Positions 26,719 through 58,356 of a stretch of DNA of 64,000 bases are shown here, one piece after another (within the stretch, counting starts at the first letter, position 1; each line of letters starts with the position of its first letter). The notes under the pieces were generated by a model. That model saw nothing but the letters and a program-made list of their open reading frames with translations, was not told the origin of the DNA and did not search any database. This DNA comes from Pusillimonas noertemannii (GTDB lineage: Bacteria > Pseudomonadota > Gammaproteobacteria > Burkholderiales > Burkholderiaceae_B), in NCBI RefSeq assembly GCF_003096595.1, contig NZ_QEKO01000001.1, positions 806,001-870,000 of the forward strand, given 5' to 3'. Made by a program: the position numbers and the translations under genes.

Positions 26719-26773
26719 GAATTCTTTGGCGGAGCGGACGGGACTCGAACCCGCGACCCCCGGCGTGACAGGC
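26718..26773. repeat. Right attachment repeat (inside intact tRNA-Asp)
   Basis: 56 bases identical to 16271-16326. Here the repeat is continuous with the 5' half of tRNA-Asp, so integration rebuilt a complete gene. The crossover must lie within this segment. Confidence 0.93.
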
Positions 26774-26803
26774 CGGTATTCTAACCAACTGAACTACCGC
26801 TCC
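26727..26803 (-). tRNA. tRNA-Asp (GTC)
   Basis: 77 bases with encoded CCA. Acceptor stem GGAGCGG/CCGCTCC, D arm, anticodon GTC in the loop CTGTCAC, and T arm GGGTTCGAGTCCC. Its 3' half is the integration target. It is the last gene of a three-tRNA operon. Confidence 0.97.
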
Positions 26804-26832
26804 GCAGCGGTGTACTGCTTGCCAGAAAGTAC

Positions 26833-26908
26833 TGGCGTCCCCTAGGGGATTCGAACCCCTGTACCCACCGTGAAAGGGTGGTGTCCTAGGCCTCTAGACG
26901 AAGGGGAC
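26833..26908 (-). tRNA. tRNA-Glu (TTC)
   Basis: 76 bases with encoded CCA. Acceptor stem GTCCCCT/AGGGGAC, anticodon TTC in CTTTCAC, and T loop GGTTCGAATCC. It closely follows the bacterial tRNA-Glu consensus. Located between the Ala and Asp tRNAs. Confidence 0.97.
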
Positions 26909-27044
26909 ACAAGGACAAACAAGCTGCAAATTTTAGCACGAAGCGTATGCTGCTTTTGGCGGCTACTGCTGTTGCTTTTGGCTAAAGCGCCGGGCGTTTT
27001 GGCCCAAACTACTGCTTGATGTTTACTGCCTTCTTTGTAGGAAC

Positions 27045-27120
<76 letters not shown>

Positions 27121-55239: not shown

Positions 55240-56403
55240 CTATGCCCGGGCGAGAAAGCCTTCCATGCGTTCCACGGCTTCTTTCAGGCGGTCCAGGCCG
55301 GTCGAGTACGACAGGCGGATCGAGTGTGCCGCATGGGCCGGCCCGAAATCGCGCCCCGGCACCGTGGCCACGCCCGCTTCATGCAGCAGCCGGTGCACGA
55401 AGTCGTCGCTGTCCTGGCTGTAGCGGCTGATGTCGGCGTAAATGTAGAAGGCGCCGTCGGGCACGACCGGCACGTGCAGGCCGATGCGCTCGAGCTGCGG
55501 CAGCAGGTAGTCGCGCCGCTGTTTGAACGACAGCCGCCGCTGGTCGTACACACGCATCACTTCGGGCTCGAAGCAGGTAAGGGCGGCATGCTGCGCCAGC
55601 GAGGGAGCGCAGATCGCCAGGCTGGCCGCAAGCTTTTCGATGGCGGGCACCATGTCTTGCGGGGCGATCATCCAGCCCAGGCGCCAGCCTGTCATGTGGA
55701 AGTATTTGGAGAAACTGTTGATGATGATGATGTCGTCGTCGATGGCCAGCGCGCTGCGTGGTGTATCGCCGTAATACAGGCCCAGGTAGATTTCGTCCAT
55801 GATGACGAAGCCGCCCCGCTGGCGCACTTCGCTGACCAGCTCGCGCAGTTCGTCGTGCTCGATGGTGGTGCCCGTGGGGTTGCTGGGCGAGGCCACGAGC
55901 ACTCCGGCTGTGGCGGGCCCCCAGTGCCGCCGGACGTCTTGGGCCGAAAGCTGGAAGCGCTGTTCCGCCGACGAGGGAACCAGCCGAGGCACGCCGCCCG
56001 CGCCCATGATGAAGTTCTGGTTGGCGGGGTAAGAGGGGTCGGACATCAGTACTTCGTCGCCCGGGTTGATCAGTGCCATGGCGGCCAGCAGCAGGGCGCC
56101 GGAAGCGCCGGATGTGACGATGACGCGGCTCGGGTCGACGGTTGCGCCGAATTGCTGCTGGTAGTAGTGGGCAATGGCCTCGCGCAGGGCGGGCAGGCCG
56201 GCCGGCGATGTATAGCCGCTTAGGCCGGCTGCCGCGGCGCGATTTAAAGTCTCGACGACCTGGGCGGGGGCGGTGAAGTCGGGCTCGCCTATGCCCAGGC
56301 TGATGATGTCCCGGCCTTGCGCATTCAGGGCGCTGGCCTGCTTGAAGATTTCGACTGCGTAGAAGGGCATGACCTGGTCGGTGCGCTTGGCTAGGCGGGA
56401 CAT
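55240..56403 (-). CDS. Class I/II PLP-dependent aminotransferase
   Basis: 387 residues from ATG 56403; the longer frame upstream runs into a repeat-rich region. PLP Lys is in NSFSKYFHMTGWRLGW. Other family marks are SLGIGEPDFTAP, SPSNPTGT and FYIYADISRYSQDS. It belongs to the aspartate-aminotransferase group of fold type I. The amino-acid specificity cannot be told; neighbours give no pathway. Confidence 0.88.
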   Translation of the reverse strand: MSRLAKRTDQVMPFYAVEIFKQASALNAQGRDIISLGIGEPDFTAPAQVVETLNRAAAAGLSGYTSPAGLPALREAIAHYYQQQFGATVDPSRVIVTSGASGALLLAAMALINPGDEVLMSDPSYPANQNFIMGAGGVPRLVPSSAEQRFQLSAQDVRRHWGPATAGVLVASPSNPTGTTIEHDELRELVSEVRQRGGFVIMDEIYLGLYYGDTPRSALAIDDDIIIINSFSKYFHMTGWRLGWMIAPQDMVPAIEKLAASLAICAPSLAQHAALTCFEPEVMRVYDQRRLSFKQRRDYLLPQLERIGLHVPVVPDGAFYIYADISRYSQDSDDFVHRLLHEAGVATVPGRDFGPAHAAHSIRLSYSTGLDRLKEAVERMEGFLARA

Positions 56404-57432
56404 AAATTGCTGCTCTGAAGAAAAATCTGATTGTAGGCGGTTCTTTGGGTTCTTGAACTGGAGCGCTGGGCGGTTGAAAGTCCCTAATGTCCCTCCATCC
56501 CGACACTTCAACAATACAAGTTCTTAAGCTGGCGCGCTGGTGTGGTCCGTTCTTTGAGTTCTTTAGCGGCGCGCTGCGGGGCAGTATTTAGGGCGCCGGA
56601 GAGCTGCGGCCGGCTTTGCCGGCTGCCCTCGCGTCCTATTGTTTTTGGGGCGCTCGCGAACTCGCGGGCGGCGGAGCAGTGCTCCGCCAAGCTTGCCCGC
56701 TCAAACATGCGCTCGCTTGCCTCCCCAAAAACAACAGGCCGCTCGGCTTGCTCAACGTCGCCCTAAATACTGCCCCGCATCGCGCCTCAGAGTGTCTTGG
56801 GTTGGGGCACCCTGGGTTTCTTGGCTTGATGCACCGTATTTTTTCTGCGACAGGTGGCGGCATTCTGCTTTTGCGACAGATAGGTGGCATTTCTACGAAT
56901 ACAGGGTGTTCTGCCACAGGCATGCGGCATTACGACCGGGCAGTATTTTTAGCTGCCAAGCCATCACATCCCCCCGGACTCAAGGTTTTCCCCAGCCCGA
57001 GCCTCGCAAGAGGGGCGTTTATCTACCCCAATGCAGTTCCTGTGATGTGGGGTGTGGCTGGGCCGGGCGTTGGCGGTCGAGCCAGGCGCCGCAGAACGGA
57101 GGGCGAAGGCCCGGAGGATGCGGACAGGCGGGCCCGGAGGGCCGACCGGCGTCGACTGGAACAGACATACCCCGCAGCGCAGGAACGGGTTTAAAGCAAA
57201 CAGCATCACATTCAAGAGGCAACCCAGGGACAAACACCCCCACAGCCAAGAGACAACTCAGGAACGGTTCAAGAACCAACGTCCTCACCGTCAGACGCAG
57301 GAGCGGACTAAGAACCAGCAATCTCACGATCAAGAGATAAGATGGAACAGGAACGAATCACCCGCCCGCTCACTCAAAACACGGCAGTCGTAGCTATACT
57401 TTCCACCAAAGATTCTTCGCAACAGGAACACC
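56404..57432. other. 1 kb gene-free stretch rich in repeats
   Basis: No convincing gene was found. From left to right it holds three diverged copies of a GTTCTT...GCGCTGG unit (56444-56576), the large nested palindrome (56568-56786), and two near-tandem GCGACAG-(A/G)T-(A)GGTGGC units around 56851-56892 resembling multiple transposase-binding sites at an insertion-sequence end. A degenerate CAAGAGACAAC-like repeat set follows at about 57200-57340. The base composition changes along the stretch. It looks like accumulated mobile-element debris. Confidence 0.5.
56568..56786. repeat. Large nested palindrome (about 219 bp)
   Basis: Outer arms 56568-56595 and 56759-56786 match at 27 of 28 positions (core GGGGCAGTATTTAGGGCG). 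Inner arms 56635-56650 and 56723-56738 match at 15 of 16 (core TTGTTTTTGGGG). The centre is a perfect GGCGGAGCA-G-TGCTCCGCC flanked by GCGGGC/GCCCGC. A side hairpin GCCGGC-TTT-GCCGGC lies on the left arm only. The layered symmetry suggests a MITE-like unit or a structured RNA. Confidence 0.65.
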
Positions 57433-58356
57433 ATGGAGTCCTCATCCAGACGGGCTTTTCTGACCGGTCGGCGTGCCGCGCGCAGCCCCTGGGAACAATT
57501 CTGCCGCCGCATGCAGCATGGCATTGCCGGCGACTTTCTTGACTTCGGCCTGTACGAAGGCAAGGGCAGCGCCCGGCTTACCCCCAGCCAGGGCGGCGAC
57601 GTGCGCCTGGCCCTGGCCCTGTGCCGCGAATTCGGGGTGGTCCTGGCCCTGAGCGGCATCAACCAGGGCGACAGCCTGACCGGGCAGTCGGTCTTGTGGA
57701 TCGAGCTCGACGGCTCCATGGCCGGCTGCCAGCCCTTGCCCGACGATGAGGGCAAGTGGTTCGTCCAGCCCGGCACGCATCTGTCGGAACTGGCAAGCGC
57801 CGGCCTGCCCCAGTTTGCCGACCAGCCCGGCTACCTTACCGTTGCCGCCTGGGCAGCCGACCGCAGCCTGTGCGGCTGGGCGCCGGGCGAGTCTTTTCGT
57901 TGCGGCCTGCTGCATGCTTCGGTGCTGATGGCCGATGGCAGCAGCGCCGTGCTGGGGCCTTTCGGCGCGGGCAACCGTATGCCCCTGGGCACGCTGACCT
58001 TGCAAAAGCTCGTGCCACAGCTGTTTGCTCTGGCTTCGTCTGAACCCGCCGCCCGTTTCGCCACTCACGAACGCTGGCCCGCGCGCTATCGTCTCGATGC
58101 GCTTGCGCCCCGGCCGGGGCATGATGTCAATCTTTCTCATCTTTTGCTGGGCCATGGGGGCGATCTGGGCTGGATCGAGTGGATGGTGTTCGAGGCCCGG
58201 CCGGCCCTGCCTTCGATGGACTGGACCACAGCCTATACCAGTCGTCCGCCGGCGGGCGACGATGCGCTGTGGCAACAAGCGTCTACGCTCGATCGCGGCG
58301 TGAAGAAGCTGTTTGATCCCGACGGCGTTTTTCCCGACCCGGGGCAGGATCTTTGA
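57433..58356 (+). CDS. FAD-binding-oxidoreductase-like protein (short form)
   Basis: 307 residues. The C-terminal VKKLFDPDGVFPDPGQ matches the end of FAD-binding (PCMH-type) oxidoreductases such as D-lactate dehydrogenases. PGTHLSELASAGLPQFADQP and FGAGNRMPLGTLTLQK also fit an FAD domain. The length is well below the usual 450 residues and the N-terminal FAD loop is not obvious, so it may be a reduced or non-flavin relative. It precedes maeB by 134 bases on the same strand. Confidence 0.5.
   Translation: MESSSRRAFLTGRRAARSPWEQFCRRMQHGIAGDFLDFGLYEGKGSARLTPSQGGDVRLALALCREFGVVLALSGINQGDSLTGQSVLWIELDGSMAGCQPLPDDEGKWFVQPGTHLSELASAGLPQFADQPGYLTVAAWAADRSLCGWAPGESFRCGLLHASVLMADGSSAVLGPFGAGNRMPLGTLTLQKLVPQLFALASSEPAARFATHERWPARYRLDALAPRPGHDVNLSHLLLGHGGDLGWIEWMVFEARPALPSMDWTTAYTSRPPAGDDALWQQASTLDRGVKKLFDPDGVFPDPGQDL

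Follow-up and report, generated by a model that had tools for sequence, protein, structure and literature searches.

What kind of element is the large palindrome that lies upstream of an aminotransferase gene in Pusillimonas noertemannii, and does it stand alone? In the window, i.e., the whole stretch of 64,000 nucleotides analysed here, a sequence-only reading had picked out this palindrome as rare by chance and unlike an ordinary terminator, and had proposed a non-autonomous mobile unit, a recombination hotspot or a structured RNA. As described below, it belongs to a real and widespread family of giant REPIN-like hairpins, which is apparently undescribed, since no description of a unit of this kind was found in the open-access sources consulted.

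Structure and surroundings of the palindrome

Inverted-repeat and fold analyses confirmed a nested palindrome of 219 bp, hereafter hairpin A (56568..56786, + strand), in which the outer 5' arm (56568..56595, +) pairs with the outer 3' arm (56759..56786, +) at 27 of 28 positions; an alternative inverted-repeat reading gives a longer outer arm of 37 nt at 89%. The inner arms (56631-56650 and 56723-56742) are 90% complementary, and the central hairpin (56670..56688, +; GGCGGAGCAGTGCTCCGCC, read from the sequence) and the one-sided hairpin on the 5' arm (56609..56623, +; GCCGGCTTTGCCGGC, two GCCGGC arms around TTT) were located as well. In the copies that were aligned or read, this side hairpin recurs at the same place with a changed stem sequence. 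The conserved core (56643..56730, +), modelled as R1 and covered by two alignments, A1 and A2, comprises a GGGG..CCCC stem, the inner stems, the central hairpin and the unpaired stretches AACTC / TCAAACA and TTGCCT.

The supposed rarity by chance was borne out, as the inverted-repeat scan scored A at 25 against a maximum of 12 in the remainder of the window, and the best scores in ten Markov resamples of 64 kb were 10-14. Folded as RNA, A reached -148.4 kcal/mol (z -11.1), and folded as DNA -87.9 (z -10.9), with none of 200 shuffles as good in either case.

Hairpin A shares a 1-kb divergent interval with a second palindrome of the composite, hairpin B (57036..57186, +; DNA fold z -3.9). Both flanking genes lie outside the element: the aminotransferase gene on the left (55240..56403, - strand; start codon inferred, function assigned by eye or from the earlier reading) reads leftwards from about 56403, away from A, so that A indeed lies upstream of it, and the gene on the right (57433..58356, +), judged by eye to be GlcE-like, reads rightwards from 57433. 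Short TTCTTAAG-like units are found 5' of A, among them an upstream partial unit (56448..56469, +; GGTTCTTGAACTGGAGCGCTGG), with similar tandem 5' units at other copies, and further tag units (56520..56579, +; GTTCTTAAGCTGGCGCGCTGG and TTCTTTAGCGGCGCGCTGCGG) that run into the 5' arm. In the tail 3' of B (57187..57420, +), AAGAACC / TTCAAGAACC units occur in the orientation opposite to that of the 5' tags, and comparable 3' tandem units are present in another genome, G238. Elsewhere in the window, three tRNA genes occupy 26730-27120 on the minus strand.

Copies in the own genome and the group II intron

The search for further copies in the own genome (G000) revealed a family and not a unique sequence: A returned 19 matches, namely ten near-complete copies, one of them cut by a contig end, seven halves and two self-matches of arms. 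All seven halves break at group II intron sequence (Rfam models), three carrying the intron 5' end (RF02001, above the gathering score) and four the domain V end (RF00029, 39.8 bits and so just under the threshold of 40); together they imply at least four intron-interrupted A copies. The insertion lies a few bases from the base of the central hairpin, and the sense of the intron is the minus strand. Class C group II introns insert next to hairpins, and group II introns would use the central hairpin of A as such an insertion site; found beside it in at least four copies, the intron is a passenger and not the element. That A is a target of this intron is the sole sign of the proposed recombination hotspot.

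Eight A copies, the seven halves (C1, C4, C5, C9, C10, C11; L011-L017) and one near-complete copy, are situated at contig ends of this draft. As all seven halves end in intron sequence, intron and repeat jointly break the draft assembly, and the copies at contig ends make the repeat relevant to genome assembly. Region B gave 14 matches, i.e., 12 places with B itself and two short tail fragments; ten of these places adjoin an A copy and two are at contig starts. Counted from the side of A, B is present at seven of the ten near-complete copies and at all three halves that retain the B side. In other genomes, B matched six times in G002, each time adjoining A, and once in G001.

Distribution in the family and beyond

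R1, a covariance model of the core of A built from 31 sequences, matched at E<=0.01 in 79 of 268 genomes and in 25 of 43 genera of the family (Alcaligenaceae), no more than 16 candidates being scored in any one genome. Unique occurrence without conservation in close relatives, named in the earlier reading as what would speak against it, is thereby contradicted. Fuller scoring in 11 genomes gave the highest number of core matches in G238 (79), 14-55 in eight genomes of the genus Alcaligenes and 22 each in G004 and G020, counts which may include both members of a pair. Among the matches listed in a pattern scan were Pusillimonas, Pollutimonas, Parapusillimonas, Candidimonas and Alcaligenes as well as Castellaniella, Paralcaligenes, Allopusillimonas and Eoetvoesiella. 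Copies were located by the coordinates of the R1 model, a strict regular expression having missed most of them. The string AACTCGCTGCGCTCAAACA occurs in only three of 268 genomes, with 30 copies in G238, and was discarded as a common string of this family.

Outside the family, weak matches were obtained in 10 of 300 order-level picks (12 less G000 and G132) and in 12 of 369 class-level picks (13 less G000). Fourteen places from six genomes of the order-level set were inspected: G294 displays at six places palindromes of 98-110 bp with the same AACTCGC / GCTCA-ACA core, the places in G319 and G039 keep the core with outer arms not found on reading, the place in G060 has an imperfect arm, that in G379 is weak and that in G513 chance-like. 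Judged by their sequence, the better of these matches are probable distant relatives of A. In G294, which belongs to a different family of the order, the shorter palindrome is preceded by another conserved hairpin with CTTTTCTTGCTTCGCCAAGCAAAGTAACCAAAA (L399-L404).

Architecture and covariation

Among 76 units scanned, 67 had outer arms of >=20 bp, found by inverted-repeat scan, and a length within 195-245 bp, a range set by us; their lengths are 208-239 bp with a median of 226. The nine units left out had arms of <20 bp or lengths outside this range, some of them because they were cut at contig ends or because a longer chance arm scored best. Outer arms, inner stems and central hairpin diverge widely between copies with pairing retained, and the unpaired AACTC, TCAAACA and TTGCCT are conserved. 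In 85 distinct cores (alignment A2, fitted to the structure and with identical rows removed) 94.3% of cells are paired and covariation amounts to 0.773, compared with 0.175 after shuffling and <=0.132 for slid partners; the first alignment, A1 (plain MAFFT), yielded 91.6% paired cells and a covariation of 0.514 vs 0.140. Core cells comprise 2218 Watson-Crick pairs, 7 G.T, 25 A.C and 109 other mismatches, and outer-arm cells 1603, 4, 44 and 31, respectively.

Forty of 67 units carried a TTCT[T/A] tag no more than 22 nt from the stem, vs 6 of 68 control windows. At 21 of 52 loci scanned, some of which had been picked because they were paired and two of which (L106 and L194) are the same place, a + core was followed by a - core within 2.7 kb; the reverse order was not seen among these loci, and L187 shows two close cores in the same direction. 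The unit is thereby similar to a REPIN, in which two tagged palindromes face each other. In G238 a reduced core in reverse orientation lies 3' of A as the partner; behind it comes a tail in which GACAACGTCATAAGAACC-like units are repeated in tandem, and partial 5' units in tandem also occur.

Several loci merit separate mention. At L263-L282 (G238) the units of about 20 bp 3' of B vary highly in number between copies, and at L111 and L123, near contig ends of the same genome, B gives way after TGTTTGAG to foreign sequence common to both copies, which may be a further insertion. Antitoxin-like and toxin-like ORFs lie between inverted hairpins in a Castellaniella MAG (L200, 831-3371) and a nitroreductase-like gene between paired hairpins at L212, all assigned by eye; these were judged to be probably chance neighbours and not gene cargo.

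Genomic location and orientation

The 54 element-bearing gaps comprise 30 convergent, 21 co-directional and three divergent ones, the 171 other gaps 14, 106 and 51, respectively, which corresponds to a convergent excess (p 1e-12) and a divergent deficit (p 1e-4); genes were called with a simple codon-usage caller, and elements <=600 bp from a locus end as well as repeated gaps were omitted. Lying between divergent genes, the copy in the window is not typical of the family.

In G238, where skew was sampled in one or two 20-kb windows for each of 11 contigs, the + strand coincides with the G-rich strand in all 37 matches listed on these contigs (of 79), with both signs within contig C11, and this bias holds although gene direction varies. 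G120 follows GC skew in 12 of 14 listed matches (of 29), one exception being the partner in a pair, and G002 in all four copies tested. No bias was found in the own genome, where 8 of 16 other copies, or 9 of 17 with the window copy, follow skew. Pooled 8-kb loci show a moderate tendency (61 of 84; 46 of 68 without G238). Set against each other, the counts from G238 and G120 and those from G000 indicate that the replication bias exists in certain hosts but is missing from at least one.

Turnover between related genomes

At one Alcaligenes locus, for which eight genomes were aligned, the element is present in three species (G121, G116, G117) and not intact in five: G119, G113 and G003 are without it, G120 has other sequence there, and G114 has a short hairpin of the outer arms only, as if, to judge from the sequence, the inside of the element had been deleted. 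In G118 the match to this locus starts within the element and covers the right flank alone, and G115 gave none. When G121 is compared with G116/G117, several changes in one outer arm have their counterpart in the other, yet some close to the inner end lack one. The orthologous copies of G116 and G117 (L324/L325) are alike except for the central hairpin, which differs as a block, the pattern that conversion between copies would give. A second Alcaligenes locus was compared by match extents only: besides G120 itself, G117, G116, G114, G118 and G113 match across the element, while the matches of G121, G119, G003 and G115 end on reaching the element or earlier. One element locus is common to G000 and P. 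caeni. Since copies persist at shared loci, turnover is slow in places.

The empty-site flanks at one Alcaligenes locus are too diverged to define a junction or a target-site duplication, and neither a transposition event nor an excision product nor such a duplication was observed. The proposal of a non-autonomous mobile unit is hence upheld in part: the element is repeated, probably non-autonomous and present or absent between species.

Discussion

The best explanation of hairpin A, at about even chances, is that it forms one half of a composite chromosomal repeat, non-autonomous and belonging in kind with REP, BIME and REPIN but about ten times larger, of which the folded single strand is recognised. 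The unit would consist of a hairpin A of about 225 nt with a short 5' GTTCTTAAG-like tag, often followed by an inverted second A or by a reduced B. The hairpin would form when its strand is single-stranded at the replication fork and would then be acted on by an enzyme, which would explain copies lying in one direction relative to the fork; copies within coding or promoter regions would be purged, and the arms would stay matched because mismatches are selected against or, as we propose, repaired via template switching. Directly shown are the repetition, an architecture that hardly varies while the Watson-Crick arms change freely, the conservation of unpaired motifs, the position at gene 3' ends, presence or absence between species and, in two genomes, orientation with replication. 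That the folded single strand is what is recognised we infer, and the repeat would act, and probably spread, through it: arms that change together and a direction that follows replication in some species suggest that a protein or process probably reads the folded shape. Against this explanation stand the lack of an observed transposition event and of an enzyme found, the own genome without orientation bias, the moderate bias in pooled loci and the persistence of copies at shared loci. A more specific version, which we put forward tentatively and hold to be rather unlikely, is a replication-coupled mobile repeat whose folded strand of about 225 nt is read by its shape and a few unpaired bases by an enzyme that is neither of the Y1 nor of the integron type; no less tentative is its extension that such repeats, seen so far in chromosomes or unassigned contigs only, have shorter relatives in other families of the order and class.

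The strand asymmetry of the mismatches bears on both this explanation and the proposed structured RNA. Counted as distinct events by a crude grouping of genus label and position, + strand mismatches comprise 56 A.C vs 9 G.T (p 2e-9), a hint that the minus strand is the folding one; as the minus strand is not the lagging-strand template in G238, this counts against the best explanation. A family of structured RNAs, non-coding or in 3'-UTRs, that is read from the minus strand, with the purine-rich loops TGTTTGAG, GCGAGTT and AGGCAAG as its functional surface and spread as RNA genes or via retro-insertion, would account for the asymmetry, A.C on + being G.U on minus, as well as for the conserved unpaired motifs, the covarying stems and the minus-strand sense of the group II intron, and is possible if doubtful. 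Minus-strand RNA is also predicted to be more stable in 64 of 66 units, by -11.5 kcal/mol on average, but the same preference appears in 36 of 40 shuffled controls (-6.5), so this test is weak, and wobble pairs make up only about 1-3% of cells even on the minus strand. Two tRNA genes in 58 loci were too few to serve as a control for wobble frequency. Neighbouring genes read into the element as + RNA in 41 of 47 and as - RNA in 28 of 47 cases, loci with more than one match being left out, and no Rfam family covers the element at gathering score; at a relaxed threshold the best match over it was a miRNA model at E 0.012, far below cut-off and at chance level. An arrangement in which nothing is recognised at all, long inverted repeats being kept perfect by template switching and spread by gene conversion and drift, is clearly unlikely. 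It would fit arms that are near-perfect within and widely different between copies, the block difference between G116 and G117 and the outer arms apparently left in G114 after an internal deletion; the unpaired motifs and the asymmetric side hairpin, however, are conserved across genera, and arm-to-arm copying alone would erase such motifs, while length is near-constant across the 67 units. Strong stems and the convergent location are what intrinsic terminators between convergent genes would likewise show. Such terminators, a GC stem followed by a T-run, were rejected as highly improbable: of 67 units, 10 show a T-run after the stem on + and none on -, the branched form of 225 nt carries conserved loops, and at one Alcaligenes locus a separate hairpin with T-run lies between the element and the right-hand gene. 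The earlier impression of something unlike an ordinary terminator is in line with these counts.

That the family is simply a REP/REPIN one, with a RAYT (Y1 HUH) transposase as its mover, appears quite improbable. In its favour are the inverted pairs, the short 5' tag and the intergenic position at gene 3' ends, as in REPs according to the accessible part of the source (PMC3733652), and the presence of Y1_Tnp (PF01797, E<=1e-5; 61 of 268 genomes) in 16 of the 79 genomes that bear the element, including G004 and G022. Yet 45 of the 189 others have it too (p 0.63), and it was not found in G000, G001, G002, G238 or ten genomes of the genus Alcaligenes, so that RAYT was rejected as the mover for want of any association and for its absence from the copy-rich genomes checked. 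In addition, the units measure about 225 bases vs 20-40 for REPs, and a GTAG or CGTC foot was found in 2 and 10 of 67 units vs 2 and 5 of 67 control windows, two windows per unit being compared with single control windows, which about doubles the chance expectation. Among the 14 largest shared clusters of 229 neighbour proteins (29 species labels) there was no transposase, only genes that are ordinary by eye. BLAST of plasmids with the window copy, and of plasmids and phages with one Alcaligenes copy, gave no match, searches which reach close relatives only because the arms vary, and an exact pattern scan of viral contigs was likewise without match; a phage or plasmid origin was accordingly rejected.

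Several known systems invite comparison. ERIC, NEMIS, bcr1 and other MITE-like repeats are intergenic, hairpin-forming and about 100-200 bp long; mobile features of their kind (ends, duplications) were not seen at the loci read here. In integrons, attC is a folded single strand with variable stem and conserved unpaired bases that is read by the integrase. Variable stems with conserved unpaired bases are a property of the present family as well, and identity with attC was rejected, complementary RYYYAAC / GTTRRRY boxes occurring in one of 67 units. ERIC, NEMIS and bcr1 are named as repeats in a source which, in the part available, also describes BRE of Bordetella as about 90 bp long, arranged in tandem arrays and lacking co-orientation with replication forks (Hot et al. 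2011; PMC3110155). BRE is similar in being an intergenic repeat of Alcaligenaceae with mobile features, and by that partial description the family is set apart from it in length, arrangement and replication orientation (PMC3110155). Bor-1, a Bordetella family with a model of 93-117 bp (Cozzuto et al. 2008; PMC2267715, in part), is likewise a structured intergenic repeat with many copies in the same bacterial family, but differs, as far as described there, from the roughly 226 bp found here. For Alcaligenes faecalis, the accessible part of the RepRanger source gives totals (PMC12306157). REPs, too, occur between convergent genes and as inverted pairs; extragenic palindromes, inverted pairs, a 5' tag, gene 3' ends and convergent gaps make up the likeness to REP, BIME and REPIN (PMC3733652, in the part available). 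Unlike REP/REPIN, the family is several to ten times longer, branched, provided with conserved internal loops, without link to Y1_Tnp and oriented with replication in two genomes, and in place of the GTAG/CGTC tag, which is near chance here, a TTCT[T/A]-like tag is seen.

If the recognition of a folded strand is true, these would be among the largest known REP-like repeats, with a conserved branched fold, and in some hosts they would be inserted with a single direction with respect to the fork in the absence of the enzyme known to move such repeats. The covarying arms together with the wobble asymmetry offer a direct route to asking which strand is read. The family would thus point to an as yet unrecognised enzyme, or a process, that works on folded single strands, and this in bacteria among which Alcaligenes is easily grown.
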